Source of the DNA: Sacculina carcini
Taxonomy: Eukaryota; Arthropoda; Thecostraca; Sacculinidae
DNA length: 64,000 nucleotides
NCBI GenBank assembly: GCA_916048095.2
Contig: OU696591.1
Location: 5,659,999 to 5,723,998 of the forward strand
Reading direction: 5' to 3'
Shown: positions 19,157 to 64,000 of the stretch, one piece after another
Layout: the number at the start of each line of letters is the position of its first letter
Position numbering within the stretch: the stretch's first letter is position 1
Made by a program: the position numbers and the translations under genes
Notes under the pieces: generated by a model
Database searches by the model: none
Seen by the model: the letters and a program-made list of their open reading frames with translations, nothing else
Told to the model about the DNA's origin: nothing

Positions 19157-20200
19157 GTCGTTTAACTCGGCACCGGCATGCATACAACACTAGACAGCTA
19201 CTTCTGACTCGCCAAACTGTGAGTATTGTGAAAGCCGTTTGTGGTTTACCTACAGGACTTTAGGATCTTAAGAGTTGATCCAATGTTTCTGAAGATGACT
19301 TTAGTAAAAGTCGAATGGTGCCTCTGGCTAAAATTAGTTCTCTCGTTGTTACTGATAAAATCACTTTCTGAAGACTAGAGCAAAATGGTGATACAAATAC
19401 ACACAAAACAGAAAACACTGTAGACGTCTACAGAACATGGATTTTAGGATTGTCTTTTTGTATCATTGGTTATCTCAGAAAACAAAAAAGATAGCTCTCA
19501 AATAACTTCAACTGCATTGAAATTTCGGCCACTGACAATTTTCACGGTATTTTTCTATGTAGCGCTCAGTTGTATGTGAAATTCTTCATTCACGCTTGGT
19601 TCCTTGTTCTCAGCATGGTTGCTGTTGTTTCTGCTAGATGCTTTGTTCAAGTGTTCGTCTTTCAGTATTTGGAATCTCAGCAATCCGTACACATTGATTC
19701 GATGTGGATATGATATATGATCGATTATAATGTCTGAATATACAAAACAACTGAGTGGGTTGTCTTTACAACATATTGCGAGGTGATCATTTCACTACAG
19801 TTAATTTGTCATTTATATAGCTCATCAGTATTCTCGGTGTTCAAAGTTAGTCTACCATACTGATTAATGTTTAAAGTTGCAGTTATAGTCACGCGGGAAG
19901 TCGCATTTAATACTTGTGCTGTTAAATATTTATTTCCTCGCTGTTTACCAGGAATAATTTTTACGTTAAAGGAATGTGAACGCATGTCCTGATTAAAACG
20001 ACAACTGTATTTCCCAATATGTTTTATTTTTCAAGGGGAAAGTTAATGATAAACTAAATAAGTGTTCTGTCAAGCGTATAATTACATTATGATCAATCAA
20101 CGGTAGGTTGGTTTCTTTTGGCGAACGCATTTGTCTCTGGTTTTACCACAGCATCGATTATACCGTTTTTTCATATCACACAAGCTCAGGTGTTGGCAAT
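19157..20200. other. Intergenic spacer before the phosphatase array
   Basis: Presumed 3' UTR of the SNAPC2-like gene, then AT-rich DNA. No repeat or gene recognised. Homology to the other phosphatase promoters begins at GTGTTGGCAATCTGCC near 20191. Confidence 0.5.
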
Positions 20201-20271
20201 CTGCCAATTCGCACCAATCAAACAATTAAGCAATTATTTACTGAGGTCTCCACAGGTGCTCGTCTCACGGG

Positions 20272-20278
20272 TATATAA
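20272..20278 (+). promoter_or_regulatory. TATA box of ALP1
   Basis: TATATAA lies 46 bp upstream of the ATG, inside a block of about 130 bp conserved at ALP1-ALP5 and partly at ALP6. This leaves a 5' UTR of only 15-25 nt and makes upstream in-frame start codons unlikely. Confidence 0.8.
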
Positions 20279-20324
20279 ACCCAATGCCTGTTCCTCATAT
20301 TCGTGCTTGCTTCATACTACCACA

Positions 20325-21992
20325 ATGAAGTTTCTTGTAGCTGCGTGTCTGCTGTCTCTGGCGGTCTGTGTGCCGCTCGATTCTCGTGTCGAAGATGAAG
20401 ATGAGTTGGAGATGCACGAGATGTGGGCTCCTACATACCAGGAGGTCCAGAGCAAGATGGGACTAGGCAAACGGGAGTCTCTGTCTAGATCAGGACAAGT
20501 TCTGGATGCCACCTACTGGAGAGGTATTGCCCAGGACATAATCTCCACCAAGCTGGCAGACCAGATCTACCACAAACAGGCAAAGAACGCAATTCTGTTT
20601 ATTGGTGATGGTATGTCAATTCACACGTTGGCAGCAGCTCGCAAACGCAAGGGATTGCTCGCAGGTGATGATGTGCCTGAGCACACCATGCTTTCCTGGG
20701 AAACGTTCCCTTACACCGGTCTGTCCAAGACGTACAACTGCGATCGCTGGACTGCTGATTCCGCTTCTACAGCGACGGCATACTTGACCGGAGCTAAAGG
20801 TAACTTCTTGACGGTTGGAGTAGACTGCACCGTGACCATCTGGGACTGTGATGCTGTCAACGAGAACTCATCACCGAAGTCCATCCTGCGGTATGGTGTG
20901 GAGGCAGGAAAGTGGGCTGGTCTGGTATCCACTGCTCGTATCACGCACGCTTCGCCTGCTGCCACATTCGGTCATACTGCTTACCGTACATGGGAGTCTG
21001 ACGCCGACTTCAAGGCTATGGAGTGGATGACTGGACCGGTGAAAGACTCGTGCAAGAATAATATGAAGGACTTGTCATCGCAGTTTGTTGATCGTGAAGG
21101 TATTGATCTGAATGTGGCGTTCGGAGGGGGATGGGGTAAATTCCTGCCAAAGACAGTTGAGGGTGGTACCCGCCTTGATGGACGCGATCTTATCCAGGAA
21201 TGGAAGGATAAACAAGCTTCCTTGGGACGCACGTACGCTTATCTGTCGACCAAGGAAGAGCTGAACAGTTTTGATCCTTCCTCGGCCGATTACGTTCTCG
21301 GTTTGTTCGCCCGTAGTCATATGAATTACCGAGCCTTCCAGGGAGCTGATGAAGTCAGCCTTACTGAGATGGTGACAAAAGCTTTGGAGATCATGAAGAG
21401 GGCACCAAATGGCTTTGTGATGTTCGTTGAGGGAGCAAAGATCGACCATGGTCACCACTATGGAAACGCTTACACTGCCATTGATGAGACCTTGGAGCTT
21501 GAAGAGGTGGTGCAGCATGTGATGGACAACACAGACGAGTCTGAGACTCTGCTGGTGGTGTCCTCTGACCACGCTCACACCTTCAAGATCAATGGATACC
21601 CAGAACGTAGTCTGGACATGTTTGGTCCTGCTTCGTTCTTGGCTGGCGGTATGCAGCGTGGTGGTTCTGCACCGAAGCCGGCACCGAAGCTTCCCTATCC
21701 TATCATGCAGTATTCCAACGGACCAGGAGGTGCTACCAGCTGGGAGGAGTTCAAGGAGAAGCGCGCTGCTCTCATGGACACCAGCGACTCTGCTGAATGG
21801 CGTGATCCTCACTACAAACAAGTTGCTGGAATCTACCTGCCGAAGGAGACTCACGGAGGAGACGACGTGGGAATTTTCGCTCGTGGTCCCGGAGCTCACT
21901 TGCTGCGTGGAAGTCTGGAGGAGAACGTCATCCACCACGTGATCAACTGGGCTCTGTGTCAGGGAGACCACATCACCGTTTGCGACAAATAA
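20325..21992 (+). CDS. ALP: Secreted alkaline phosphatase, copy 1
   Basis: Intronless, 555 aa. Zn/Mg phosphomonoesterase of the alkaline phosphatase family. A signal peptide (1-16) precedes an acidic segment and a dibasic GKR (48-50). Catalytic residues, by family pattern: Asp95 (FIGDGM), nucleophile Ser146 (TADSASTATA), His208 and Ser210 (ITHASPA), Arg221, Glu369, Asp374 and His378 (VEGAKIDHGHHYG), Asp415/His416 (SSDHAH) and His510 (ETHGGDD). The C-terminus ends shortly after a Cys-containing segment (LCQGDHITVCDK), without the hydrophobic GPI signal of most animal family members, so it is probably soluble. The in-frame ORF extends to 20118, but that part covers the TATA box; MKFLVAACLL at 20325 is the start. 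It has 3' flank type A, with AATAAA at 22115-22120. Ser319 variant. Outermost plus-strand copy; the only one of ALP1-ALP5 without an antisense stub upstream. Confidence 0.95.
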   Translation: MKFLVAACLLSLAVCVPLDSRVEDEDELEMHEMWAPTYQEVQSKMGLGKRESLSRSGQVLDATYWRGIAQDIISTKLADQIYHKQAKNAILFIGDGMSIHTLAAARKRKGLLAGDDVPEHTMLSWETFPYTGLSKTYNCDRWTADSASTATAYLTGAKGNFLTVGVDCTVTIWDCDAVNENSSPKSILRYGVEAGKWAGLVSTARITHASPAATFGHTAYRTWESDADFKAMEWMTGPVKDSCKNNMKDLSSQFVDREGIDLNVAFGGGWGKFLPKTVEGGTRLDGRDLIQEWKDKQASLGRTYAYLSTKEELNSFDPSSADYVLGLFARSHMNYRAFQGADEVSLTEMVTKALEIMKRAPNGFVMFVEGAKIDHGHHYGNAYTAIDETLELEEVVQHVMDNTDESETLLVVSSDHAHTFKINGYPERSLDMFGPASFLAGGMQRGGSAPKPAPKLPYPIMQYSNGPGGATSWEEFKEKRAALMDTSDSAEWRDPHYKQVAGIYLPKETHGGDDVGIFARGPGAHLLRGSLEENVIHHVINWALCQGDHITVCDK

Positions 21993-24420
21993 TTGACGTC
22001 ATTGATGGAGCCAACTATTGCTAGAACTGTCATGTTCCCAAGATGACTGAAATCCCGAAAAACATAGCGGGCATATGCTGAACATATATAGACTATTGTT
22101 TGTGACGGTTGAAGAATAAACGAACTGAAATGTGAACAATGAATTTAACAGGTGTGACTTTCACGCATTGCCATATACACTGTCGATTGAATTTAAAAAA
22201 GAATGTGGCAAATTAAATGCTGATTCATTGAGCGTTTGCGTAGTCATCACAACATGTACACAAAATCGTAAAACTTGATCAAAGCGTTCATCAAAGTTAA
22301 TTCATAGCTCCAAATCGCTCATAATGTTCGATAACAATCGATTTCACCTTGTTTATTGATCTCAATGAACCAGTTGAAATAAAAAGATCGTGGACGCCAT
22401 CAATTTCACGCTCCAATCCTCATGCACCTTGACCAGCAAGAGACACAGAGAGAAGAGCAGTAACATTCTCAAATGAAAACATACCGCACCGGAGAAATAA
22501 GGTGAAACTGAATCAGAAACGCCCACACAAGATGAACAGCTTTACCACGAACAGCAGCATGAACATTACAGGATAAGCAGAATAGAGAAGAGAGAGAAGC
22601 AAGCCAGAAACTCAACGTGACACATTTCGCTAGTGGATATACCACAGGAAGACTGGGTCCACAGCTATGGTTGGAGGTAATGCTATTTTATTGGTAATCG
22701 CACAAATGAAAAATGATGACACAACTAAACATCGGTTGAGTACACTTTCACCCCAACAATCTGAAGGAGAGTAATGGCTGTCCTGAAACAATTGAGGTTC
22801 CATTCTGTTACTCCATAAACTTTATGAGATATCATTTTGAAGATATATTAAATGTTGAGATCTCTACTGGATCAAATTGATAATATCTGACTCCTCACAA
22901 TAGCGACTCGAACTTCACAACGCAGAACAAAACGGTGCACACAACAAAGACAAATTCGACCGATAGACGGAAAATATCGTGTATTTATCCGAACAGGTTG
23001 ATGCCAACACAAATATAGCTCGAAAATGCAAGCTTTGCTTAACCCTCCAGAATCCAAGGTGATATCCTGTATCCTGTGCATCAGCTGTTTCCCTCCATCC
23101 CTCAGCAAGCTGTAGTGGCGTATTTGCTCAATAGATGTGATTTTTATGTTGCACTGGTGTTACTCTGGGTTTTGGTGGTAAATTGTTGAGTGTTAGTTTT
23201 CTTTAGTATGTTATACTCTTATGAAACAAATGTTACATATGTGTAACATGGGTTCTAAAGGGATAAGTTGTGTCTGCATGCATTTGTATCTGTGTATATT
23301 TAGCCTCTGATTAAGTGGAGATTAAGTTAAGTGGACTTAAATGGTGTGATAATGATTGAGTATGTGTGCGCGTGTGCATCTGTATATAAGTTCGCTTTTT
23401 CACATTTTTTCAACAATTATATTTCGCACGAACATACAAGAATAAAAAACACTTGTAGAATAAAAAACACATTTTAAGAGTGGGAGGAAAGCACATGTCT
23501 CAATCACTGAATTTAATTTTAACAACTTCAAATTCATGCAACTAGGAAAAATTGCTAAAATAAAATTGATGATTTAAAATATAATAAAATTTGTAAAAAT
23601 TGAGAAAATATCTACGTCACCTAATTCTAGTTATTTTGCTAGATATTTCTAAGGTTTAGTCACGTGCTAGACATCTCGCCGAAATATAACACTACATCTA
23701 TCATACATCCATAAAGGTAGAAGGTTTGAGCGGCGTTGATGGGGAAAAATTGATAGAAAACCGGCTTTTACAATAAATTATGCATAATTCTAACTTTAAT
23801 AAATAATTCATACTTCAATCAATATAATCAGCTAAACCGATTTCAACCGCGGCATCTATCAATCCTAATATTGAAGAATGAAATAATTTTGAATATTTGT
23901 TTTATGAGCAAAAACTCAACAATCGCCAACCTTTTAACAATCTGGTGACCGCTTAGAATTTCAGTCTTAGCCGGTACAAACGGATAATATTGATACAAAT
24001 AAGAAATTAAGCTTACATTTTGATTCTAAGACCAATGTTACAAAATAAAAAATATATTTATATTATCCACTTGATTTAGAAAACTTACTAAATTAATGTA
24101 TTTATTAAAAAAATGACACACCATGCTTGAATAATTCAACCACACAATTTGATGTTTTAACGTTAGGGCAACACTAAAGTTATGGCTTACAACATACAAC
24201 GTTTGATACACACCAAACCAGAAACTTGCTCAAAGAGCGAAGCGGCCTGTACCAATCTCAAAGCAAAATTTTGATTAAATCCTTCATGCCTGAAGTACTA
24301 CCAGGGACAGTGACAGGTCGATTACTGAACCACCTATACGTCTATACAGGAGAACATTCTTAACGAATGAAAATAACGTTGAAACATTAATAGTCCAGTG
24401 TACGAACAATTTTTATTAAC
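21993..24420. repeat. Intergenic unit copy I1 (A flank to B flank)
   Basis: Holds the type A 3' flank (GACGTCATTGATGGAGCCAA), a conserved ~900 bp block, a piggyBac-like MITE, and an AT-rich block ending near CCAAACACGACACACAGA. It lacks the hAT-like MITE B: at 23271-23278 the unoccupied target TCTGCATG continues straight into CATTTGTAT. The same unit recurs at 26.5-29.8, 32.3-35.3, 38.4-40.8, 42.8-49.0 and 53.9-55.4 kb. Confidence 0.85.
23043..23262. mobile_element. piggyBac-like MITE in unit I1
   Basis: Ends CCCTCCAGAATCC and GGTTCTAAAGGG, flanked by TTAA (23039-23042) and ATAA. Other copies: 27559-27778, 33689-33908, 39466-39674, 48604-48823, and a remnant ending at 53964. All occupy the same place in the unit, so it inserted before the amplification. 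Confidence 0.7.
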
Positions 24421-24593
24421 CAAACACGACACACAGACGACAGTTTACAATGCGTTTATTCAACTTGGTGATTATCTGGGTTTCGTTTGATCACAAATTA
24501 ATGAACATACCAAAACGACCAACAATTTTGCAACAAAAAATCCAAATTGGCGGTCGAGTCTGAAAAAGCAAATATCATTATCATAAAGAAATT

Positions 24594-24712
24594 ATTTATC
24601 GCAAACGGTGATGTGGTCTCCCTGACATAGAGCCCAGTTGATCACGTGGTGGATGACGCTCTCCTTCAGACTTCCACGCAGTGAGTGAGCTCCGGGACCA
24701 AGAGCGAAAATT
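24594..24712 (-). pseudogene. Antisense 3' stub of alkaline phosphatase, upstream of ALP2
   Basis: About 119 bp matching the last ~38 codons (from the IFARGPG segment to the stop) on the minus strand, with a type B 3' flank continuing leftwards. It is cut at AGCGAAAATT and fused directly to the ALP2 promoter block at GTGTTGGCAATC. It differs from the full genes at more positions than they differ among themselves, including a Cys-to-Tyr change in the LCQGD segment. Confidence 0.9.
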
Positions 24713-24794
24713 GTGTTGGCAATCTGCCAATTTGCACCAATCAAACAATTAAGCAATTATTTACTGAGGTATTCACAGGTGCTCCTCTCACGGG

Positions 24795-24801
24795 TATATA
24801 A
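24795..24801 (+). promoter_or_regulatory. TATA box of ALP2
   Basis: TATATAA, 46 bp before the ATG. The promoter block starts about 82 bp upstream, where the antisense stub ends. Confidence 0.8.
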
Positions 24802-24847
24802 ACCCGGTGCCTGCTCCTCATATTTGTGCTTACTTCATACCACCACA

Positions 24848-26515
24848 ATGAAGTTTCTAGTAGCTGCGTGTCTGCTGTCTCTGGCGGTCTGTGTGCCGCT
24901 CGATTCTCGTGTCGAAGATGAAGATGAGTTGGAGATGCACGAGATGTGGGCTCCTACATACCAGGAGGTCCAGAGCAAGATGGGACTGGGCAAACGGGAG
25001 TCTCTGTCTAGATCAGGACAAGTTCTGGACGCCACCTACTGGAGAGGAATTGCCCAGGACATAATCTCCACCAAGCTGGCAGACCAGATCTACCACAAAC
25101 AGGCAAAGAACGCAATCCTGTTTATTGGTGATGGTATGTCAATTCACACGTTGGCAGCAGCTCGCAAACGCAAGGGATTGCTCGCAGGTGATGATGTGCC
25201 TGAGCACACCATGCTTTCCTGGGAAACGTTCCCTTACACCGGTCTGTCCAAGACGTACAACTGCGATCGCTGGACTGCTGATTCCGCTTCTACAGCGACG
25301 GCATACTTGACCGGAGCTAAAGGTAACTTCTTGACGGTTGGAGTAGACTGCACCGTGACCATCTGGGACTGTGATGCTGTCAACGAGAACTCGTCACCGA
25401 AATCCATCCTGCGGTATGGTGTGGAGGCAGGAAAGTGGGCTGGTCTGGTATCCACTGCTCGTATCACGCACGCTTCGCCTGCTGCCACATTCGGTCATAC
25501 TGCTTACCGTACATGGGAATCTGACGCCGACTTCAAGGCTATGGAGTGGATGACTGGACCGGTGAAAGACTCGTGCAAGAACAATATGAAGGACTTGTCA
25601 TCGCAGTTTGTTGATCGTGAAGGTATTGATTTGAATGTGGCGTTCGGAGGAGGATGGGGTAAATTCCTGCCAAAGACAGTTGAGGGTGGTACCCGCCTTG
25701 ATGGACGCGATCTTATCCAGGAATGGAAAGATAAACAAGCTTCCCTGGGACGCACGTACGCTTATCTGTCGACCAAGGAAGAGCTGAACAGTTTTGATCC
25801 TGCTTCGGCCGATTACGTTCTCGGCTTGTTCGCCCGTAGCCATATGAATTACCGAGCTTTCCAGGGAGCTGATGAAGTCAGCCTTACTGAGATGGTTACA
25901 AAAGCTTTGGAGATCATGAAGAGGGCACCAAATGGCTTTGTGATGTTCGTTGAGGGAGCAAAGATCGACCATGGTCACCACTATGGAAACGCTTACACTG
26001 CCATTGATGAGACCTTGGAGCTTGAAGAGGTGGTGCAGCATGTGATGGACAACACAGACGAGTCTGAGACTTTGCTGGTGGTTTCCTCTGACCACGCTCA
26101 CACCTTCAAGATCAATGGATACCCAGAACGTAGTCTGGACATGTTTGGTCCTGCTTCGTTTTTGGCTGGCGGTATGCAGCGTGGTGGTTCTGCACCGAAG
26201 CCGGCACCGAAGCTTCCCTATCCTATCATGCAGTATTCCAACGGACCAGGAGGTGCTACCAGCTGGGAGGAGTTCAAGGAGAAGCGCGCTGCTCTCATGG
26301 ACACCAGCGACTCTGCTGAATGGCGTGATCCTCACTACAAACAAGTTGCTGGAATCTACCTGCCGAAGGAGACTCATGGAGGAGACGACGTGGGAATTTT
26401 CGCTCGTGGTCCCGGAGCTCACTTGCTGCGTGGAAGTCTGGAGGAGAACGTCATCCACCACGTGATCAACTGGGCTCTGTGTCAGGGAGACCACATCACC
26501 GTTTGCGACAAATAA
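24848..26515 (+). CDS. ALP: Secreted alkaline phosphatase, copy 2
   Basis: 555 aa, intact. It differs from ALP1 by Ala instead of Ser at residue 319; other changes seen are silent. 3' flank is type A, with AATAAA at 26639-26644. All catalytic residues listed for ALP1 are kept. Plus strand, followed by the longest plus-oriented intergenic unit (26.5-29.9 kb), which carries MITE B and a LINE fragment. Confidence 0.95.
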   Translation: MKFLVAACLLSLAVCVPLDSRVEDEDELEMHEMWAPTYQEVQSKMGLGKRESLSRSGQVLDATYWRGIAQDIISTKLADQIYHKQAKNAILFIGDGMSIHTLAAARKRKGLLAGDDVPEHTMLSWETFPYTGLSKTYNCDRWTADSASTATAYLTGAKGNFLTVGVDCTVTIWDCDAVNENSSPKSILRYGVEAGKWAGLVSTARITHASPAATFGHTAYRTWESDADFKAMEWMTGPVKDSCKNNMKDLSSQFVDREGIDLNVAFGGGWGKFLPKTVEGGTRLDGRDLIQEWKDKQASLGRTYAYLSTKEELNSFDPASADYVLGLFARSHMNYRAFQGADEVSLTEMVTKALEIMKRAPNGFVMFVEGAKIDHGHHYGNAYTAIDETLELEEVVQHVMDNTDESETLLVVSSDHAHTFKINGYPERSLDMFGPASFLAGGMQRGGSAPKPAPKLPYPIMQYSNGPGGATSWEEFKEKRAALMDTSDSAEWRDPHYKQVAGIYLPKETHGGDDVGIFARGPGAHLLRGSLEENVIHHVINWALCQGDHITVCDK

Positions 26516-27558
26516 TTGACATCATTGATGGAGCCAACTATTGCTAGAACTGTCATGTTCCCAAGATTACTGAAATCCAGAAAACACATCGCGGGCATAT
26601 GATGAACATATATAGACTATTGTTTGTGACGGTTGAAGAATAAACGAACTGAAATGTGAACAATGAATTTAACAGGTGTGACTTTCAGACATTGACATAT
26701 ACACTGTCGATTGAATTTAAAAAATAATGTGGCAAATTAAATGCTGATTCATTGAGCGTTTGCGTAGTCATCACAACACGTACACAAACTCGTAAAACTT
26801 GATTAACGCTTTGATCAAAGTTAATTCATAGCTGCAAATCACTCATAATGTTCGATAACAATCGATTTCGCCTTGTCTATTGATATCAATGAACCAGTTG
26901 AAATGAAGAGATCGTGGACGCCATCAATTGCATCGCTCCTATACTCATGTACCTTGACCAGCAAGAGACACAGAGATAAGAGCAGTAACATTATCAAATG
27001 AAAACATACCGTACAAGAAATCAGGTGAAACTGAATCAAAAACGCCCACACAAGATGAACAGCTTCACCACGAACAGCAGCATGAACATTACAGGATAAG
27101 CCGAATAGAGAAGGGAGAGAAGCAAGCCAGAAACTCAACGTGACACATTTCGCTAGTGGATATACCACAGGAAGACTGGGTCCACAGCTATGGCTGGAGG
27201 TAATGATATTTTATTAGTAATCCCACAAATGAAAAATGATGACACAACTAAACTTCGGTTGAGTACACTTTCACCCCAACAATCTGAAGGAGGGTAATGG
27301 CTGTCCTGAAACAATTGAGGTTCCTTTCTGTTATTCCATAAACTTCATAAGATATCATTTCGAAGATATATTAAATGTTGAGATCTCTACTGGATCAAAT
27401 TGATAATATCTGACTCTTCACAATAGCGACTCGAACTTCACACCGCAGAACAAAACGGTGCACACATCAAAGACGAATTCGACCGATAGACGGAAAATAT
27501 TGTGAATTTATCCGAACAGCCAACACAAATATAGCTCGAAAATGCAACCTCTGCTTAA

Positions 27559-27778
27559 CCCTCCAGAAGCCAAGGTGATATCCTGTATCTTGTGCATCAG
27601 CTGTTTCCCTCCATCCCTCAGCAAGCTGTAGTGGCGTATTTGCTCAATAGATGTGATTTTTATGTTGCACTGGTGTTACTCTGGGTTTTGGTGGTAAATT
27701 TTTTAGTGTTAGTTTTCTTTAGTATGTTATACTCTTATGAAACAAATGTTCCATATGTGTAACATGGGTTCTAAAGGG
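27559..27778. mobile_element. piggyBac-like MITE in unit I2
   Basis: Same element and position as 23043-23262: TTAA on the left (27555-27558), ATAA on the right. Confidence 0.7.
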
Positions 27779-27796
27779 ATAAGTTGTGTCTGTATG

Positions 27797-28034
27797 CAGA
27801 ACCGTAGCAACCGCCCCCCGTACCCCCCGGCCGGGGGGGGTTGCTTCACGTATGATATTAATATGTATCATATTTATTATGTATAGCCTTTACCTTTTTG
27901 CTCAGATGTTTTCACCTGAGCTTGTATTATGTGTTTATGTCTAATAAATGAATTCATTATTTGGTGCTTTATTTATAATGGGGGCCCCAAGTGTTGCCTT
28001 CGGGGGGGGGGCATAAGTCCTCGCAACGGCTCTG
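27797..28034. mobile_element. hAT-like MITE B, copy 1
   Basis: Starts CAGAACCGTAGCAACC and ends CGCAACGGCTCTG. Perfect 8-bp target duplication TCTGTATG (27789-27796, 28035-28042). Units I1 and I4 show the empty site. The interior is C/G-rich at both ends and AT-rich in the middle. No transposase. Confidence 0.9.
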
Positions 28035-28113
28035 TCTGTATGCATTTGTATCTGCGAATATTTAGCCTCTAATTGTGTAACTTGTGTGTATGTGTGTGTG
28101 TGTGTGTGTGTGG

Positions 28114-28152
<39 letters not shown>

Positions 28153-29023
28153 CTAGTTGCGGGCAAGTTAAGTGGACGTAAATGGTGTGATAATGTTTGA
28201 GTATGTGTTTGCGTGTGCATCTGTATATAATTTCGATTTTTCACATTTTTCAACTAGAACAATTATATTTCGCACGAACATACAAGAATAAAAAACACTT
28301 GTAAAATAAAAAACACATTTTAAGAGTGTGAGGAAAGCATCTGTCTCAATCACTGAATCTAATTTTAACAACTTCAAATTCATGCAACTAGGAAAAATTG
28401 CTAAAATAAAATTTTCATTTAAAATAAAATAAAATGCCTCAAAATTGAGAAAATATCTACGTCAGCCTAATTCTAGTTATTTTCTAGATATTTCTAAGGT
28501 TTAGTCACGTGCTAGACATCTCGCCGAAATAAAACACTGCATCTATCATACATTCATAAAGGTAAAAGGTTTTAGCGGCGTTGATTGGGAAATATTAGTG
28601 AAAACCGGCTCGTATAATTAATTATGCAGAATTCTAAATTCAATAAATATAATCAGCTAAACCGATTTCAACCGCGGCATTTATCAATCCTAATATTGAA
28701 GAAAAAAATTATTTTGAAGAATTATTTTATGAGAAAAAACTCAACAATCGCCAACCTTTTAACAATCTGGTGACCGTTTAGAATTTCAGTCTTAGCCGGT
28801 ACAAACCGATAATATTGATACAAATAAGAAATTAAGCTTACATTTTGATTCTAAGACCAATGTTACGAAATAAAAAATATATTTTTATGATCCACATGAT
28901 TTGGAAATATTACAAAATTAATGTATTAATTAAACAATGACACAACATGCTCGAACAATTCAGCCACAAATTAGATGTTTTAACGTTAAGGCAGCACTAA
29001 AGTTATGGCTTACAACATACAAC

Positions 29024-29515
29024 CGCCGTTTTGTCTTCGAACTACCCTCACGTCACGTGACTACCTCTGCTTTCCTGAAATTACTCGGCTGGCTACCGTT
29101 CAAATTAATGATTCACCACAAAATTTGCTGTTTGGCGTACAGAGCTCTTCATTCTGCCCATCCTCCTCCTTATCTCAAGAAGCTTTTCTCTGTTTCTGCA
29201 CATAATCATAACACTCACAAATCCAACTCTCTTCTAGAAATTCCCGCCGTCTCCGAATCTTCCTAGTCGTCAAAATCGTTTCAATTTTATGCTCTTCGTA
29301 TCTTCAACCAGCTTCCATCTCATATTGCGACTGCAAAATCTTACAGCTCATTCTCCTCTAAACTGCGTGAACATCTGCTTCGTTGTTATCGTGAAACATA
29401 ACCATGTGTGCATGTTGTTTCAATATTATGTGATTAATTCTATACCTCGATTGTCATTGTCTTTATATATTCGCCTGTACTTTGTTTTAAAGTGGCCATT
29501 TAAATACAAATACAA
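29024..29515 (+). mobile_element. 5'-truncated LINE fragment in unit I2
   Basis: Encodes the C-terminal part of a LINE ORF2-like protein (LLGWLPFKLMIHHKICCLAY), similar in pattern to LGWLPAPLRIRFKICCLVF near the end of the LINE at 45.6 kb but clearly another family member. Ends in AAATAC repeats. Target duplication ATACAAC (29017-29023, 29516-29522). Absent from the other units, so inserted after duplication. Confidence 0.85.
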
Positions 29516-29913
29516 ATACAACGCTTGCTATACACCAAACCAGAAACTTGCTCAAAGAGCGAAGCGGCCTATACCGATCTCAAAGCAAAATGTTGATTAA
29601 ATCCTTCATGGCTGAAGTCCTACCAGGGACAGTGACAGGTCGAATACTGATCCACCTATACGTCTATACAAGAGAACATTCTTAACGAATGAAAATAACG
29701 TTGAAACATCATTAGTCCAGTGTACGAACAATTTCTATCAACCAAACACGACACACAGAAGACAATTTTCAATGCGTTTATTCAACTTGGTGAATATCTG
29801 GGTTTCGTTTGATCACAAATAAATAAACATACCAAAACGGCCAACAATTTTGCAACACAAAATCCAAATTGGCGATCGACTCTGAAAAAGCAAATATCGT
29901 AATCATAAAGAAA

Positions 29914-30034
29914 TCATTGATCGCAAACGGTGATGTGGTCTCCCTGACATAGAGCCCAGTTGATCACGCGGTGGACGACGTTCTCCTTCAGACTTCCACG
30001 CAGTGAGTGAGCTCCGGGACCAAGAGCGAAAATT
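29914..30034 (-). pseudogene. Antisense 3' stub of alkaline phosphatase, upstream of ALP3
   Basis: Same stub as upstream of ALP2, with the same breakpoint at AGCGAAAATT/GTGTTGGC. The shared breakpoint shows that the fused stub plus promoter was copied as a unit. Confidence 0.9.
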
Positions 30035-30116
30035 GTGTTGGCAATCAGCCAATTTGCACCAATCAAACAATTAAGCAATTATTTACTGAGGTCTCCACAG
30101 GTGCTCGTCTCACGGG

Positions 30117-30123
30117 TATATAA
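30117..30123 (+). promoter_or_regulatory. TATA box of ALP3
   Basis: TATATAA at the same distance from the ATG as in ALP1 and ALP2. Confidence 0.8.
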
Positions 30124-30169
30124 ACCCGGTGCCTGCTCCTCATATTCGTGCTTACTTCATACCACCACA

Positions 30170-31837: not shown

Positions 31838-32033
31838 TTTCTTTATGATAATGATATTTGCTTTTTCAGACTCGACCGCCAATTTGGATTTTTTGTTGCA
31901 AAATTGTTGGCCGTTTTGGTATGCTTATGAATTTGTGATCAAACGAAACCCGGATAATCACCAAGTTGAATAAACGCATTGGAAATTGTCTTCTGTGTAT
32001 CGTGTTTGGTTGATATAAATTTTTCGTACACTG

Positions 32034-33325: not shown

Positions 33326-33357
<32 letters not shown>

Positions 33358-33408
33358 ACAAGTTACACAATTAGAGGCTAAATATACGCAGATACAAATG
33401 CATACAGA

Positions 33409-37598: not shown

Positions 37599-37634
<36 letters not shown>

Positions 37635-53034: not shown

Positions 53035-53049
53035 TGTGGCCGGTTAGAT

Positions 53050-53924
53050 TGTGGTTTTGAGATGTATTAGATCAGTGGTCCCCAACCCCCGGGCCGAGGA
53101 CCGGTACCGGTCCGTGGGTCGTTTGGTGCCGGGCCGCACAGAAATAATAAATGACTTACATTGCTTCCGTTTTATTGATTTCGGAATCTGAACGATGTTT
53201 TATTTTGAAAAATTACCCGATTCTCTGTAACATCCGTCTATGTCACTTTTGACGCAGGTCAAGGCGCTCTTCTCGGTCACGTGAAACCCAGGAGCCAGCA
53301 AAATGAGTAAAAAACAAACGTCTTTGGAAAGTTTCTTTGCGAAGGGAAAAGACAGAAGACAGAGACAGAAGAGCCCAGCCATGAGACAGAAGAGGAGCCT
53401 ACGACTTCCAAGAAAAAGAAAGCTACATTTAGCGTTATATTTAGAAAATACAACAGTTTTCATGCAGGTCATATCATGTTATTTTGTTGTATTTATGCGC
53501 CACACCTCAAAGGCCGGTCCCTGAAAATATTGTCTGACATTAAACCGGTCCGTGGCGCAAAAAAAGTTGGGGACCGCTGTATTAGATGACCGAATACGAA
53601 TGAGGTTGAACAATGCGATGAGACAGAAAACAAACAATTAATACAATAAAAACCTCACCTGCAAATTCTCACAATTCAACAGCTCAAAGCGCTCCACGCT
53701 CGCAACAATAACCGTTCCACGCTCACGCCACACACTCCACCACCGCACTCCCCATTACTTCTCCTCGCACCCTCTAAGCCCGCCCATTGATCACATACAT
53801 ATAATCAGCTAACACACTGGTAACGCCATCTAACGACAATATACACAAACAACGTGTCTCCTCATCACTCTATACATAAACACAAATAGTCATATAAACA
53901 AAGCGTCTACACGGCAAAACCACA
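53050..53924 (-). repeat. 5' LTR of the gypsy-like element, interrupted
   Basis: LTR sequence 53050-53072 and 53588-53924 around a hAT element with its target duplication. Together it equals the 360 bp of the 3' LTR. Confidence 0.8.
53073..53579. mobile_element. hAT element remnant inside the LTR
   Basis: Inverted ends CAGTGGTCCCCAACCCC and GTTGGGGACCGCTG, with a perfect 8-bp duplication TATTAGAT (53065-53072, 53580-53587). 507 bp. The plus strand at 53303 opens with MSKKQTSLESFF, like the start of many hAT (ZBED-type) transposases, then loses frame. The CAGTGGTCCCCAACC / ACCGGTACCGGTCCGTGG sequence recalls widespread animal hAT ends (from memory). Non-autonomous. Confidence 0.9.
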
Positions 53925-55378
53925 GAAACAAATGTTCCATATGTGTAACATGGGTTCTAAAGGGATAATTTGTGTCTGTATGCAGAGCCGTAGCAACCGC
54001 TCCCCGTACCCCCCGGCCGGGGAGCCCCGAATGTTTAGTGTTTTGTTTGTTTTGTTTTGTTTTGTTTTGTTTTTATTCACAGTGTTTCATTCACAAACAT
54101 TCACAGTGTTTTTATTCCCCGTTCCTTCACGTATGATATTAAAATTTATCATATTTATTATGTATAGTCTTTACCTTTTTGCTCAGATGTTTTCACCTGA
54201 GCTTTTATTATGTGATTATGTCTAATAAATGAATTCATTATTTGGTGCTTTATTTATAATGGGGCCCCCAAGTGTTGCCTTCGGGGGGCCTCATAAGTCC
54301 TCGCAACGGCTCTGTCTGTATGCATTTGTATCTGCGTATATTTACCCTCTAATTGTGTAACTTGTGTGTATGTGTGTATGTGTGTTCTAGTTGCGGGCAA
54401 GTTAAGTGGACGTAAATGGTGTGATAATGATTGAGTATGTGTGTGCGTGTGCATCTGTATATAAGTTCGCTTTTTCACATTTTTTCAACTAGAACAAGTA
54501 TATTTCGCACGAACATAGAATAAAAAACACATTTTAAGAGTGTAAGGAAAGCATCTGTCTCAATCACTGAATAAAATTTTAACAACTTCAAATTCATGCA
54601 ACTAGGAAAAATTGCTAAAACAAAATTGATGATTTAAAATATAATCAAAATTGTAAAAATTGAGAAAATATCTACGTCACCTAATTCTAGTTATTTTGCT
54701 AGTTATTTCTAAGGTTTAGTCACGTGCTATACATCTCGCCGAAATATAACACTATCATACATTCATAAAGGTAAAAGGTTTGAGCGGCGTTGATTGGGAA
54801 ATATTAGAGAAAACCGGCTTGTACAATTAATTATGCATAATTCTAGCTTCAATAAATATAATCAGCTAAACCGATTTCAACCGCGGCATTTATCAATCTT
54901 AATATTGAAGAATGAAATTATTTTGAAGAATTGTTTTATGAGCAAAAACTCAACAATCGCCAACTTTTTAACAATCTGGTGACCGCTTAGAATTTCAGTC
55001 TTAGCCGGTACAAACCGATAATATTGATACAAATAAGAAATTAAGCGTACATTTTAATTCTAAGACCAATGTTACAAAATAGAATATATATTTATACGAT
55101 TTTACTTAAATAATTCAGCCATACAATTGATGTTTCAACGTTAGGGCAACACTAAAGTTATGGCTTACAAAATACAACGCTTGCTACACACCAAACCAGA
55201 AACTTGCTCAAAGAGCGAAGCGGCCTATACCAATCTCAAAGCAAAATGTTGATGAAATCCTTCATGGCTGAAGTACTACCAGGGACAGTGACAGGTCGAA
55301 TACTGAACCACCTATACGTCTATACAGGAGAACATTCTTAACGAATGAAAATAACGTTGAAACATCATTAATCCAGTG
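53925..55378. repeat. Intergenic unit copy I5, plus-oriented part
   Basis: Starts abruptly at the LTR edge inside the piggyBac-like MITE (only its last 40 bp, to 53964) and continues with MITE B copy 4 and the AT-rich end of the unit, in the orientation of I1 and I2. Confidence 0.85.
53983..54314. mobile_element. hAT-like MITE B, copy 4
   Basis: CAGAGCCGTAGCAACC start, CGCAACGGCTCTG end, duplication TCTGTATG at 53975-53982 and 54315-54322. It holds an extra TTTTGT-rich stretch near 54040-54075. Confidence 0.9.
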
Positions 55379-55659
55379 TGTAAAATACTACATGTGCCTA
55401 TACTTCGCTTGGTTACTTGAGCACTGCAATATTATATTGCAAGCCGTGCAGCGTCTATTAGCGGAACGTCCTGGTGTATGTCTGTGTGCGGTGTGTATGT
55501 GTTCGCTGGCTATTGTGTTCACTTAAGCTCAGTCTTACGTATCGTTTTGTGAATACACGTATTACATGGCGCAGCCGACAGGATATTGTGTGATCTTATT
55601 TCTCAGCAATATTGTGTTATTTTGGAATTTTTTGTATCATATTTGACGCTTGCTTAGCA
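55379..55659 (+). mobile_element. Small LTR-type insertion downstream of ALP6
   Basis: 281 bp, starts TGTAAAATACTACA, ends GCTTAGCA, duplication CAGTG (55374-55378, 55660-55664). TGGCGCAGCC at 55567 directly after TTACA could be a primer-binding site, meaning a ~188 bp LTR plus leader remnant; a solo LTR is the alternative. The paralogue is at 32034-32322. Confidence 0.65.
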
Positions 55660-55855
55660 CAGTGTACGAAAAATGTATATCAACCAAACACGATACACAG
55701 AAGACAATTTCCAATGCGTTTATTCAACTTGGTGATTATCCGGGTTTCGTTTGATCACAAATTCATAAGCATACCAAAACGGCCAACAATTTTGCAACAA
55801 AAAATCCAAATTGGTGGTCGAGTCTGAAAAAGTAAATATCATTATCATAAAGAAA

Positions 55856-57523
55856 TTATTTATCGCAAACGGTGATGTGGTCTCCCTGACACAGAGCCCA
55901 GTTGATCACGTGGTGGATGACGTTCTCCTCCAGACTTCCACGCAGCAAGTGAGCTCCGGGACCACGAGCGAAAATTCCCACGTCGTCTCCTCCATGAGTC
56001 TCCTTCGGCAGGTAGATTCCAGCAACTTGTTTGTAGTGAGGATCACGCCATTCAGCAGAGTCGCTGGTGTCCATGAGAGCAGCGCGCTTCTCCTTGAACT
56101 CCTCCCAGCTGGTAGCACCTCCTGGTCCGTTGGAATACTGCATGATAGGATAGGGAAGCTTCGGTGCCGGCTTCGGTGCAGAACCACCACGCTGCATACC
56201 GCCAGCCAAGAACGAAGCAGGACCAAACATGTCCAGACTACGTTCTGGGTATCCATTGATCTTGAAGGTGTGAGCGTGGTCAGAGGACACCACCAGCAGA
56301 GTCTCAGACTCGTCTGTGTTGTCCATCACATGCTGCACCACCTCTTCAAGCTCCAAGGTCTCATCAATGGCAGTGTAAGCGTTTCCATAGTGGTGACCAT
56401 GGTCGATCTTTGCTCCCTCAACAAACATCACAAAGCCATTTGGTGCCCTCTTCATGATCTCCAAAGCTTTTGTCACCATCTCAGTAAGGCTGACTTCATC
56501 AGCTCCCTGGAAAGCTCGGTAATTCATATGACTACGGGCGAACAAACCGAGAACATAATCGGCCGAGGAAGGATCAAAACTGTTCAGCTCTTCTTTGGTC
56601 GACAGATATGCGTACGTGCGTCCCAGGGAAGCTTGTTTATCTTTCCATTCCTGGATAAGATCGCGTCCATCAAGGCGGGTACCACCCTCAACTGTCTTTG
56701 GCAGGAATTTACCCCATCCCCCTCCGAACGCCACATTCAGATCAATACCTTCACGATCAACAAACTGCGATGACAAGTCCTTCATATTGTTCTTGCACGA
56801 GTCTTTCACCGGTCCAGTCATCCACTCCATAGCCTTGAAGTCGGCGTCAGATTCCCATGTACGATAAGCAGTATGACCGAATGTGGCAGCAGGCGAAGCG
56901 TGCGTGATACGAGCAGTGGATACCAGACCAGCCCACTTTCCTGCCTCCACACCATACCGCAGGATGGATTTCGGTGATGAGTTCTCGTTGACAGCATCAC
57001 AGTCCCAGATGGTCACGGTGCAGTCTACTCCAACCGTCAAGAAGTTACCCTTAGCTCCGGTCAAGTATGCCGTCGCTGTAGAAGCGGAATCAGCAGTCCA
57101 GCGATCGCAGTTGTACGTCTTGGACAGACCGGTGTAAGGGAACGTTTCCCAGGAAAGCATGGTGTGCTCAGGCACATCATCACCTGCGAGCAATCCCTTG
57201 CGTTTGCGAGCTGCTGCCAACGTGTGAATTGACATACCATCACCAATAAACAGGATTGCGTTCTTTGCCTGTTTGTGGTAGATCTGGTCTGCCAGCTTGG
57301 TGGAGATTATGTTCTGGGCAATACCTCTCCAGTAGGTGGCATCCAGAACTTGTCCTGATCTAGACAGAGACTCCCTTTTGCCCAGTCCCATCTTGCTCTG
57401 GACCTCCTGGTATGTAGGAGCCCACATCTCGTGCATCTCCAACTCATCTTCATCTTCGACACGAGAATCGAGCGGCACACAGACCGCCAGAGACAGCAGA
57501 CACGCAGCTACAAGAAACTTCAT
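55856..57523 (-). CDS. ALP: Secreted alkaline phosphatase, copy 6
   Basis: 555 aa, intact, with Asn71 instead of Asp and Ser319. 3' flank type B. The promoter matches ALP1-ALP5 for about 115 bp upstream of the ATG, then diverges near 57632; there is no stub upstream. It may be the intact relative of the B-type genes that elsewhere survive only as stubs. Confidence 0.95.
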   Translation of the reverse strand: MKFLVAACLLSLAVCVPLDSRVEDEDELEMHEMWAPTYQEVQSKMGLGKRESLSRSGQVLDATYWRGIAQNIISTKLADQIYHKQAKNAILFIGDGMSIHTLAAARKRKGLLAGDDVPEHTMLSWETFPYTGLSKTYNCDRWTADSASTATAYLTGAKGNFLTVGVDCTVTIWDCDAVNENSSPKSILRYGVEAGKWAGLVSTARITHASPAATFGHTAYRTWESDADFKAMEWMTGPVKDSCKNNMKDLSSQFVDREGIDLNVAFGGGWGKFLPKTVEGGTRLDGRDLIQEWKDKQASLGRTYAYLSTKEELNSFDPSSADYVLGLFARSHMNYRAFQGADEVSLTEMVTKALEIMKRAPNGFVMFVEGAKIDHGHHYGNAYTAIDETLELEEVVQHVMDNTDESETLLVVSSDHAHTFKINGYPERSLDMFGPASFLAGGMQRGGSAPKPAPKLPYPIMQYSNGPGGATSWEEFKEKRAALMDTSDSAEWRDPHYKQVAGIYLPKETHGGDDVGIFARGPGAHLLRGSLEENVIHHVINWALCQGDHITVCDK

Positions 57524-57569
57524 TGTGGTGGTATGAAGTAAGCACGAATATGAGGAGCAGGCACCGGGT

Positions 57570-57576
57570 TTATATA
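57570..57576 (-). promoter_or_regulatory. TATA box of ALP6
   Basis: Minus-strand TATATAA in the common promoter core. Confidence 0.8.
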
Positions 57577-57899
57577 CCCGTGAGACGAGCACCTGTGTAG
57601 ACCTCAGTAAATAATTGCTTAATTGTTTGATTTGTGTGGGCAGTGATTGGTGACACCTGAGCTTATTTCTTTGTAGAACGTGTGTTATGTATTATCACTG
57701 CATCATCTTAACAAAGGCGTTCACCAAAGCGGTGCATTGCTATTTCTTGTTTTTTGCTTTTTGTTTCATTTTTCCACACACTTAACGACAATTTTGAAGT
57801 GCCATATTTGCCAATTCAGTGGGGGTCTGGAATCATCGGAAACAATCAGAATTAGTATCATTATTAATATTATTAATTACAGACAAATCCTGTAGTATT

Positions 57900-58298: not shown

Positions 58299-58683
58299 AA
58301 AATGGATGAGGAAGTTGTTCCGCAAATGAAATAAGGCGATTATATCGAAAGATTCATTACAACGAGCAAATTTTAACAAAAGATGGAAAACCTGAATTTA
58401 CTTATATTATATTATAATCTAGCGAACAACAAACCAATAGGGTTGATATCTTTATCGAATATACGTGGTGCATCGGTGTGGCAATTTGATTCTTCAAACC
58501 GAATTGTGGAGCTTGGTAGCCATGGAGCTATACAATTGAACAACGTGAGTGCTTTGGACCGACTGTATTTACACTCACAGACACAGGACGAACCGGACAC
58601 GTACAAACAAGATCACGCATACATGGTCCAACAACACATACACAATGACACGGACAAACATGGCACACAAACATACACACAAA

Positions 58684-58970
58684 CCCGGCGGAGCAGAATT
58701 TCATTGGGCGAATTCTACAATACCACAGCCCCTGTCCACCCAGCAGAAAATGATGGTACCAGATATCAGTCATGAGTTGTGCCATGCATTCTGGGGAGGT
58801 GGCCCTCTCTAATACGTCTTACGTCCTTGTGGCGCCATAGCGTGGAGAGGGTCGGTTCTGCGGTGGCAGCGAGCTGCACGGGGCACACCTGTGTGTTCAT
58901 AAGCTTCGTCTTCTTCCCGTGTAGCAGCTGTCACTTAGGTATTTAACCATTTAACCATTTAACCGACATA
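58684..58970 (+). mobile_element. tRNA-derived SINE, copy 4 (head missing)
   Basis: Starts at CCCGGCGGAGCAGAATTTCA, just after where the B-box would be, so the Pol III promoter is lost. Complete 3' part with ATTTAACC repeats as tail. Confidence 0.85.
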
Positions 58971-61571: not shown

Positions 61572-63239
61572 TTATTTGTCGCAAACGGTGATGTGGTCTC
61601 CCTGACACAGAGCCCAGTTGATCACGTGGTGGATGACGTTCTCCTCCAGACTTCCACGCAGCAAGTGAGCTCCGGGACCACGAGCGAAAATTCCCACGTC
61701 GTCTCCTCCGTGAGTCTCCTTCGGCAGGTAGATTCCAGCAACTTGTTTGTAGTGAGGATCACGCCATTCAGCAGAGTCGCTGGTGTCCATGAGAGCAGCG
61801 CGCTTCTCCTTGAACTCCTCCCAGCTGGTAGCACCTCCTGGTCCGTTGGAATACTGCATGATAGGATAGGGAAGCTTCGGTGCCGGCTTCGGTGCAGAAC
61901 CACCACGCTGCATACCGCCAGCCAAGAACGAAGCAGGTCCAAACATGTCCAGACTACGTTCTGGGTATCCATTGATCTTGAAGGTGTGAGCGTGGTCAGA
62001 GGACACCACCAGCAGAGTCTCAGACTCGTCTGTGTTGTCCATCACATGCTGCACCACCTCTTCAAGCTCCAAGGTCTCATCAATGGCAGTGTAAGCGTTT
62101 CCATAGTGGTGACCATGGTCGATCTTTGCTCCCTCAACGAACATCACAAAGCCATTTGGTGCCCTCTTCATGATCTCCAAAGCTTTTGTCACCATCTCAG
62201 TAAGGCTGACTTCATCAGCTCCCTGGAAGGCTCGGTAATTCATATGACTACGGGCGAACAAACCGAGAACGTAATCGGCCGAGGAAGGATCAAAACTGTT
62301 CAGCTCTTCCTTGGTCGACAGATAAGCGTACGTGCGTCCCATGGAAGCTTGTTTATCTTTCCATTCCTGGATAAGATCGCGTCCATCAAGGCGGGTACCA
62401 CCCTCAACTGTCTTTGGCAGGAATTTACCCCATCCTCCTCCGAACGCCACATTCAGATCAATACCTTCACGATCAACAAACTGCGATGACAAGTCCTTCA
62501 TATTGTTCTTGCACGAGTCTTTCACCGGTCCAGTCATCCACTCCATAGCCTTGAAGTCGGCGTCAGACTCCCATGTACGGTAAGCAGTATGACCGAATGT
62601 GGCAGCAGGCGAAGCGTGCGTGATACGAGCAGTGGATACCAGACCAGCCCACTTTCCTGCCTCCACACCATACCGCAGGATGGATTTCGGTGATGAGTTC
62701 TCGTTTACAGCATCACAGTCCCAGATGGTCACGGTACAGTCTACTCCAACCGTCAAGAAGTTACCCTTAGCTCCGGTCAAGTATGCCGTCGCTGTAGAAG
62801 CGGAATCAGCAGTCCAGCGATCGCAGTTGTACGTCTTGGACAGACCGGTGTAAGGGAACGTTTCCCAGGAAAGCATGGTGTGCTCAGGCACATCATCACC
62901 TGCGAGCAATCCCTTGCGTTTGCGAGCTGCTGCTAGCGTGTGAATTGACATACCATCACCAATAAACAGGATTGCGTTCTTTGCCTGTTTGTGGTAGATC
63001 TGGTCTGCCAGCTTGGTGGAGATTATGTCCTGGGCAATACCTCTCCAGTAGGTGGCGTCCAGAACTTGTCCTGATCTAGACAGAGACTCCCGTTTGCCCA
63101 GTCCCATCTTGCTCTGGACCTCCTGGTATGTAGGAGCCCACATCTCGTGCATCTCCAACTCATCTTCATCTTCGACACGAGAATCGAGCGGCACACAGAC
63201 CGCCAGAGACAGCAGACACGCAGCTACAAGAAACTTCAT
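61572..63239 (-). CDS. ALP: Secreted alkaline phosphatase, copy 7 (unrelated flanks)
   Basis: 555 aa, intact, Met300 instead of Leu, Ser319. The CDS matches the other copies, but identity stops within a few bases of the ATG and of the stop codon. The 3' flank is a third type (C) and the promoter is different. Outermost minus-strand copy. It could be the source locus, or a copy whose CDS was overwritten by conversion. Confidence 0.95.
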   Translation of the reverse strand: MKFLVAACLLSLAVCVPLDSRVEDEDELEMHEMWAPTYQEVQSKMGLGKRESLSRSGQVLDATYWRGIAQDIISTKLADQIYHKQAKNAILFIGDGMSIHTLAAARKRKGLLAGDDVPEHTMLSWETFPYTGLSKTYNCDRWTADSASTATAYLTGAKGNFLTVGVDCTVTIWDCDAVNENSSPKSILRYGVEAGKWAGLVSTARITHASPAATFGHTAYRTWESDADFKAMEWMTGPVKDSCKNNMKDLSSQFVDREGIDLNVAFGGGWGKFLPKTVEGGTRLDGRDLIQEWKDKQASMGRTYAYLSTKEELNSFDPSSADYVLGLFARSHMNYRAFQGADEVSLTEMVTKALEIMKRAPNGFVMFVEGAKIDHGHHYGNAYTAIDETLELEEVVQHVMDNTDESETLLVVSSDHAHTFKINGYPERSLDMFGPASFLAGGMQRGGSAPKPAPKLPYPIMQYSNGPGGATSWEEFKEKRAALMDTSDSAEWRDPHYKQVAGIYLPKETHGGDDVGIFARGPGAHLLRGSLEENVIHHVINWALCQGDHITVCDK

Positions 63240-63292
63240 TGTTCTCAGTGGCTCTGCTTGTCGTGTAGTGACAGTCCTTCATGAAACCGGGG

Positions 63293-63298
63293 TTTATA
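63293..63298 (-). promoter_or_regulatory. TATA box of ALP7
   Basis: Minus-strand TATAAA in CGTGGGATATAAACCCC, about 54 bp from the ATG. The surrounding sequence is unrelated to the other promoters except for the CCC that follows, so regulation may differ. Confidence 0.65.
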
Positions 63299-63299
63299 T

Positions 63300-64000
63300 C
63301 CCACGTGGAACACTTGTGTGAGAGAGATAATTCATTTCTGATTGGTTAATGACCATGATTGGTTTGGCTATAATTGGCTGTTGTTATTATTCACCACACA
63401 TATAATTGCTTCGATTTTTGTGTTTATGCTTTTGCTGTTATTCGCAGTAATTTGTTTTTCATATGGTATAATTTTAGTTTTTGCATTATTCGTTTGGGTT
63501 TTAATTGATAAGAATGCCCACTCTGGTGAAGTGATTCTACATAGTGATGTTCCATGTAAAACACGACAGCGTCCGAAAATTGACAGAAGTTTGAATTTTG
63601 AAAAAATACAGTATAAAAATAGTGAAGTATAGCTGAACAACGAACAGGCAGAATTCTGAAAACACTAATAAAACTTCTACGGAAGGTTGAAATTTCCACA
63701 GGATATGTTGGATATTACGCAAAATATGAAACAATTAAATCAAACAAACGGGTGGAGTTTAATAAAATAACCGTTACTTTTGCGAGAATCATAGTTTGTT
63801 GTCAGTACGACATTATTATTCATTTTTATTTTGTATGGCGATGCCAGACTGTAATCGAGAGTGCGAGCTGATCCCATAAGAGGGATATCCGTCCACCCGA
63901 CGCAGCGCGAGGAATGGTAAATAATTTAGTCTATTGAGGAGGTTGGACTCAGTATTTGGGCGTTGAGGTTGGACTCAGTTTTTGGCTCCAACCTTTCCTC
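63300..64000. other. Right flank of the array
   Basis: AT-rich, no homology to the unit seen. An open frame from ATG 63426 to 63632 encodes ~68 residues with a hydrophobic start, unsupported. Near the edge GAGGTTGGACTCAGT occurs twice (63939, 63965). Confidence 0.4.

Follow-up and report, generated by a model that had tools for sequence, protein, structure and literature searches.

In the excerpts of the two papers on which we draw here, the palindromic Drosophila amylase genes Amy-p and Amy-d show concerted evolution confined to coding sequence (PMC3924832), the inverted linked Drosophila copies Hsp70Aa/Ab and Ba/Bb show gene conversion with less homogenised 3′ regions (PMC3924832), and Stratiomys singularior carries a linked hsp70 cluster with inverted copies, in which conversion has homogenised the coding regions, the 3′ regions less so, and transposon insertions and rearrangements lie between copies (PMC3071340). 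We analysed a single 64-kb window of Sacculina carcini (the whole stretch of 64,000 nucleotides at positions 5,659,999 to 5,723,998 of contig OU696591.1, forward strand), and all findings on the array described below apply to that window, past which the array may extend. It contains seven alkaline phosphatase (ALP) genes that resemble the dipteran hsp70 clusters in having inverted linked copies with apparently homogenised coding regions (as the excerpts describe them; PMC3071340, PMC3924832). We propose, with a probability of about 0.77, that this is a cluster of secreted animal-type ALP genes in concerted evolution, in which old tail-to-tail pairs have been amplified, ectopic conversion has homogenised the coding sequence, and purifying selection acts on all copies. 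By analogy, the array appears to work like the Drosophila amylase and hsp70 clusters, which is a known way of gene-array evolution.

The seven intact ALP open reading frames (ORFs) are each 1668 bp long (555 aa), with a single stop, and span 20325-63239; their strand order, from left to right, is + + + - - - -. An earlier note, made from the sequence alone, had described seven near-identical intact intronless copies, three plus then four minus, and these 555-codon ORFs bear it out. The hsp70 genes, too, are intronless. The 3′ flanks fall into three types: A (c1, c2, c4 and c5), B (c3, c6 and four gene fragments listed below) and C (c7).

20325-21992, plus strand: c1, intact ALP ORF, 3′ flank type A
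24848-26515, plus strand: c2, intact ALP ORF, 3′ flank type A
30170-31837, plus strand: c3, intact ALP ORF with a TGA stop; a hybrid, with promoter block and fragment junction like c2, c4 and c5 but a B-type 3′ flank
35297-36964, minus strand: c4, intact ALP ORF, 3′ flank type A
40772-42439, minus strand: c5, intact ALP ORF, 3′ flank type A
55856-57523, minus strand: c6, intact ALP ORF, 3′ flank type B; upstream DNA its own beyond about -115
61572-63239, minus strand: c7, intact ALP ORF, type C flanks; blastn homology to c1 covers 61572-63242 (stop codon to 3 nt before the ATG)

Across the seven ORFs, 58 of 1668 positions vary, 57 of them in sense codons and one in the c3 stop codon. The amino acid changes at four of 555 codons: D71N (in c6), L300M (c7), S308T (c5) and S/A319 (A in c2, c3 and c5). 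These are exactly the residues (71, 300, 308 and 319) to which the earlier note had limited the variation. That note had also proposed a check of dN/dS between copies; over the 21 pairs, dN is 0-0.0023 and dS is 0.034-0.061.

Upstream of the ORFs, a common promoter block is found in c1 to c6, and a much shorter resemblance in c7.

20190-20324, plus strand: promoter block of c1, 135 bp, with TATATAAA at -53
24713-24847, plus strand: c1 promoter block repeated (block map)
30035-30169, plus strand: c1 promoter block repeated (block map)
36965-37099, minus strand: c1 promoter block repeated (block map)
42440-42574, minus strand: c1 promoter block repeated (block map)
57524-57636, minus strand: last 113 bp only of the promoter block, upstream of c6
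63240-63359, minus strand: c7 promoter, similar to that of the other copies over only about 40 bp around TATAAACC (-59)

The motif TATAAACC lies at -51 in c1-c6 and at -59 in c7, and AATAAA lies at +99 to +132 in the seven genes. Aligned locally with three of the other six copies, c1, c3 and c6, the approximately 40 bp around the c7 TATA box outscored all of 200 shuffles each time. Outside 61572-63242, c7 has no blastn match to the other copies. On the downstream side, homology between A and B genes ends 2 nt past the stop. The 3′ flanks of different type (250 bp each) could not be significantly aligned: of 200 shuffles, 53 (c1-c3), 41 (c1-c6), 179 (c1-c7), 111 (c3-c7), 15 (c4-c6) and 11 (c5-c3) reached the observed score. 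In Stratiomys hsp70, by contrast, homology on the 5′ side can be seen within roughly 200 bp and the 3′ untranslated regions fit one tree, according to the excerpt of that study (PMC3071340). Divergence between A-type flanks is 3.9-5.4%, and the two B flanks differ by 5.5% over 1481 positions; since same-type flanks differ by 3.9-5.5%, we take the whole unit to have been duplicated within a flank type. Between types, only the coding sequence, along with the near promoter in c1-c6, has stayed together. Beyond the array, a 240-bp sequence at 7227-7466 is 81-88% similar to the distal part of the A flank (e.g. 23041-23266, 33685-33910 and 48600-48825), and this distal part is probably a dispersed repeat.

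Silent divergence among the coding sequences is similar regardless of flank type, mean dS being 0.0539 for the 7 pairs of like flank and 0.0505 for the 14 pairs of unlike flank. Because three flank types exist, yet coding silent divergence ignores them, these data point to gene conversion. Silent variants are also shuffled among copies, the four-gamete test giving a conflict for 86 of the 153 pairings of informative sites. Silent evolution simulated without recombination on the FastTree topology gave a mean of 12.7 conflicts and a maximum of 80, and none of 2000 simulations reached 86; in a second series, also recombination-free (1000 simulations each), 86 was reached 0 times with equal rates, and 1, 3 and 16 times with gamma alpha of 1, 0.5 and 0.3. 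Only two ORF sites, 474 and 1662, separate A genes from B genes. Site 1662 (codon 554) reads GAT in c3, c6 and three of the fragments (f2, f3 and f4) and GAC in the A and C genes; the last ORF nucleotides, which adjoin unlike DNA, thus retain the mark of their flank type, as one would expect where a tract ends. By position along the ORF, the variable sites number 6 over the initial 150 bp, 48 over the middle 1365 bp and 3 over the final 150 bp. We suggest that A, B and C are older paralogues, the flanks of which would have diverged beyond recognition. Ectopic gene conversion among closely linked copies, several of them inverted, would spread sequence within the stretch that still matches, that is, the ORF and, among c1-c6, 110-135 bp of promoter, and would halt where homology ends.

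Several observations weigh against this proposal, for which the evidence comes from copies within one array, whereas concerted evolution is classically demonstrated by setting such copies against their orthologues. With strong rate variation (alpha 0.3), the recombination-free simulations do match the observed conflicts in those 16 of 1000 cases, and the simulated data held 11-13 informative sites against 18 seen, which makes the comparison an approximate one. The longest-run test gives weak evidence of conversion tracts, with a global P of 0.032 and two of 21 pairs below 0.05 (c1-c5, 0.0068; c1-c7, 0.0204; uncorrected), and the tree is not a pure star, c2 and c3 grouping with a local support of 0.900. 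Among the A copies, the conflicting two-against-two sites for the three possible groupings number 3, 3 and 2 in the ORF and 2, 7 and 4 in a 740-bp flank; shuffling touches same-type flanks too, not the ORF alone. Site 474, which separates A from B and C, is interior, and c7 has no excess of differences near the ORF edges, though conversion might fade there. Lastly, two A-versus-B flank comparisons, c4-c6 and c5-c3, are borderline (15 and 11 of 200 shuffles), and the A and B 3′ flanks may retain a trace of similarity; the old homology of the three 3′ flanks is otherwise something that we infer, its direct sign being only the approximately 40 bp of c7 promoter.

In addition to the intact genes, tblastn and blastn detected four truncated ALP 3′ ends of 111-121 matching bp, all from nucleotide 1548 of the coding sequence (CDS). 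Each abuts, in opposite orientation, the 135-bp promoter block directly upstream of c2, c3, c4 or c5.

24592-24712, minus strand: f2, truncated ALP 3′ end, CDS nt 1548-1668
29914-30034, minus strand: f3, truncated ALP 3′ end from CDS nt 1548
37100-37219, plus strand: f4, truncated ALP 3′ end from CDS nt 1548, frameshifted
42575-42695, plus strand: f5, truncated ALP 3′ end from CDS nt 1548; the match stops at 42685 and the last codons are missing

The building block of the array is a tail-to-tail pair in which an A-flanked gene faces a B-flanked gene, and such pairs are repeated in both orientations: c1(A)-f2(B), c2(A)-f3(B), c3(B)-c4(A), f4(B)-c5(A), f5(B)-A remnant and A remnant-c6(B). Of the six B-type genes, four are truncated at one common point, CDS nt 1548, and the array is partly palindromic about 33.6 kb. 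With its type C flank, c7 stands apart from the pairs at the right edge. The inventory in the earlier note was right for the seven genes and overlooked the four truncated gene ends, the three 3′ flank types and the retroelements between c5 and c6.

21993-24591, no strand: spacer of the tail-to-tail pair c1-f2; A flank on the c1 side (21993-23282), B flank on the f2 side (to 24591)
26516-29913, no strand: spacer of the tail-to-tail pair c2-f3; A flank on the c2 side, B flank on the f3 side
31838-35296, no strand: spacer of the tail-to-tail pair c3-c4; B flank on the c3 side (31838-33612), A flank on the c4 side (33669-35296), with a tRNA-like repeat inside
37220-40771, no strand: spacer of the tail-to-tail pair f4-c5; B flank on the f4 side, A flank on the c5 side
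42684-49033, no strand: flank region, B flank of f5 (to 45563) and a distal A-flank remnant without a gene (48584-49033, minus strand), with a long interspersed element (LINE) between
53925-55855, no strand: flank region, 60-bp distal A-flank remnant (plus strand) and B flank of c6

The hybrid c3 combines an upstream fragment-promoter junction like that of c2, c4 and c5 with a downstream B flank, and polarity flips after it. Had the c3 ORF undergone an ectopic crossover with an intact B gene lying inverted further right, the c4-c5 segment would have been flipped. The outcome, read rightwards, would be a c3 that joins an A promoter to a B tail, followed by c4 and c5, turned round together with their fragments, and by an A flank with its gene on the right-hand side; c6 and c7 would already have had their minus-strand orientation when the crossover took place. 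The map up to 49033 agrees with this prediction. The gene expected beside the A-flank remnant at 48584-49033 is missing, and because the long terminal repeat (LTR) element next to it sits between two oppositely oriented A-flank remnants, a deletion probably accompanied that element.

Private changes number 5, 6, 6, 5, 7, 6 and 5 in c1 to c7, and 37 of these 40 are silent (3 are replacements), where neutrality would predict about 28% (P = 2.7e-17). For single copies, c1 to c7, P is 0.0019, 0.00054, 0.00054, 0.0019, 0.0029, 0.0087 and 0.026, uncorrected; c6 and c7 would fail a seven-test correction. The truncated ends provide a contrast: over some 40 codons, differences that replace a residue or affect the terminus number 4 in f2, 6 in f3 and 10 in f5 (in f5 mostly from the missing last codons), and f4 has a frameshift, whereas the intact copies have no amino-acid change over the same region. 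Three changes are common to f2, f3 and f5, and were therefore inherited. The seven working genes thus seem to be maintained by selection. The simplest reason for selection to preserve all seven genes for a single secreted enzyme would be dosage, which is the likely benefit. The earlier suggestion of dosage amplification gains indirect support from the predominance of silent private changes, towards which each copy leans; as a simple amplification it is incomplete, given the three flank types and a coding dS that does not track them.

A recent burst of duplication without continuing conversion, from one ancestor about 5% silent divergence ago and with the B and C flanks arising from breakpoints at ORF ends, would account for the nearly star-like tree with its 5-7 private changes per copy, for same-type units that differ about as much as silent sites do, and for the large rearrangements that clearly occurred. 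We nevertheless consider such a burst improbable, since it requires three breakpoints within about 3 nt of the ORF end (A/B after the stop, and c7 on both sides) and does not predict conflicts in 86 of 153 site pairs; moreover, the diverged version of the same core promoter that c7 carries would be hard to obtain from a random new flank. That the ORF itself was the unit of transfer, perhaps by transcript- or cDNA-templated conversion rather than ordinary DNA conversion, is less probable again. This idea draws on the c7 exchange spanning ATG-3 to the stop, on A/B homology ending 2 nt past the stop and on the little fading at the edges, and templating of this kind could explain the absence of introns; the common 110-135 bp promoter of c1-c6, reaching upstream of the TATA box, speaks against cDNA-templating as the sole mechanism. 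A retrocopy origin of each copy was rejected as the source of the array, c1-c6 having common promoter sequence, and a single founding retrocopy is possible.

Assembly duplication, which the earlier note had named as what would refute the array, is very unlikely judging by the sequence. Highly heterozygous marine animals can show about 5% silent divergence between haplotypes, a value that the silent divergence here would fit, and the partial palindrome is what one might see had haplotypes or fold-back reads been stacked as false copies of one or two genes. However, the 64 kb contain 0 N, seven nearly equidistant copies are more than two haplotypes allow, and fold-back copies would be near-identical, whereas same-type flanks differ by 3.9-5.5% with indels, unequal insertions and different junctions. 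In addition, the c7 flanks are unlike all others, and the LINE and LTR element occur only between c5 and c6. We give least credence of all to purifying selection alone as what keeps old paralogues alike without conversion. Although dN stays within 0-0.0023 in all 21 pairs, protein constraint would not keep silent divergence down to about 0.05 where the 3′ flanks of two genes do not align, and GC3 of 0.557-0.568 indicates no extreme codon bias. We therefore retain concerted evolution by ectopic conversion, with selection on all copies, as the preferred reading.

The product of the array appears to be an animal-type alkaline phosphatase. The c1 product, the one tested, matches Pfam PF00245 at 6e-106 over profile positions 1-422 of 423, and its best Protein Data Bank (PDB) chains include placental ALP (1zeb, 4.9e-90) and 1k7h (1.2e-87), which we take to be shrimp ALP; bacterial-type ALPs in the PDB match far worse, at 1.3e-24 or weaker. 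A bacterial origin of the intronless gene is not supported, animal ALPs scoring far better than bacterial ones in the PDB. A scan of a collection of genome contigs with six peptide patterns matched 47 stretches and gave 0 relatives at E 1e-3, by a single-protein query that detects close relatives only and that distant bacterial ones could escape. Residues D95, S146, H208, S210, R221, E369, D374, H378, D415, H416 and H510 align with placental D42, S92, H153, S155, R166, E311, D316, H320, D357, H358 and H432, presumably the nucleophile serine, the Zn and Mg ligands and the phosphate-binding arginine; the nucleophile and the Zn and Mg ligand positions are conserved relative to placental ALP in this alignment. 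Because these Zn, Mg and catalytic residues are present, the enzyme is likely active, and once secreted it would act as a typical Zn/Mg alkaline phosphatase. The earlier statement that all metal and catalytic residues are present holds for Zn, Mg and catalysis and fails for the vertebrate calcium (fourth metal) site, which we take to comprise placental F269, E270, E216 and D285. In the placental alignment, which is uncertain at E216, that site is not kept (E270 is replaced by A329, E216 aligns with K272, and D285 is replaced by E343), while the neighbouring F269 is retained as F328.

That the product is secreted, also claimed earlier, is backed by hydropathy, which suggests an N-terminal signal peptide: the five most hydrophobic 15-mers begin at residues 1-5 (values 2.15-2.64). 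No C-terminal signal for a glycosylphosphatidylinositol (GPI) anchor was found, the ORF ending CDK-stop and its last twenty 15-mers having hydropathy of -0.39 to 0.82. Between the signal peptide and the catalytic domain lie about 44 acidic-rich residues holding a GKR site at residues 48-50, and the protein has one N-glycosylation motif. It shares with placental 1zeb and with 1k7h the whole catalytic domain and the positions of the Zn/Mg ligands and nucleophile, and differs from animal ALPs in the acidic-rich stretch with its GKR site, in lacking a GPI tail and in the replaced placental calcium-site residues. A structure model from the single sequence reached a mean pLDDT of 34.5 and was useless.

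The retroelements between c5 and c6 comprise the LINE and the LTR element. An uninterrupted LINE frame of 906 aa at 45594-48314 (plus strand) matches Pfam RVT_1 (1.2e-28) and Exo_endo_phos (2.3e-08), i.e. reverse transcriptase (RT) and endonuclease, and the LINE 3′ region (48250-48515) has a second copy at 11548-11813 (93%). The LTR retroelement occupies 49047-53924, with ORFs on the minus strand; its integrase is weak by Pfam (rve 6.5e-05, below the curated cut-off), and its CCHC gag-like and protease/RT-like frames were recognised by eye only, with no Pfam match. Its ends differ at 3 of 347 positions, and no obvious target-site duplication was seen in 15-16 nt on each side. Related repeats lie at 34023-34354, 14920-15451 and 58681-58952, two of them with tRNA-like parts (Rfam tRNA, 34276-34348 and 15380-15439), and are probably a family of tRNA-derived short interspersed elements (SINEs); over the window, Rfam (2 hits) and ARAGORN (1) gave tRNA-like matches in repeats only. 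Elsewhere, a minisatellite at 1-952 contains 43.6 copies of a 21-bp unit and is open in both strands, and a 341-bp tandem repeat lies at 1677-2411. To the left of the array, open frames at 13246-19156 (plus strand) include a Myb/SANT-like stretch seen by eye (13246-13728) and a basic C-terminus; the two frames tested, 14302-15171 and 18332-19156, have no Pfam match. These frames are perhaps exons of an ordinary multi-exon gene.

In the silkworm, soluble and membrane-bound ALP genes lie in tandem as two diverged genes. The likeness to our array is in neighbouring ALP genes with one soluble product, and the difference is that theirs is a diverged pair, not a near-identical array. The amylase genes belong to another enzyme family and form small clusters (pairs are named in the excerpt), whereas here there are seven intact copies and four fragments (PMC3924832); hsp70 encodes an intracellular chaperone rather than a secreted enzyme. 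No ALP array of this kind was found in the open-licence PMC literature, as judged by titles and abstract openings, which does not establish that none has been published.

If our proposal is true, the locus is a clear case of coding-only concerted evolution in an ALP family. The three 3′ flanks would serve as fixed labels, making the reach of conversion measurable to within a few nucleotides, and the four dead gene ends would provide a built-in contrast without constraint. Short-read assemblies could collapse arrays of this kind to one gene. Selection on seven copies implies that the dosage is used, and makes this ALP a candidate bulk secretory product, for which gut, egg or mineral roles are possible.

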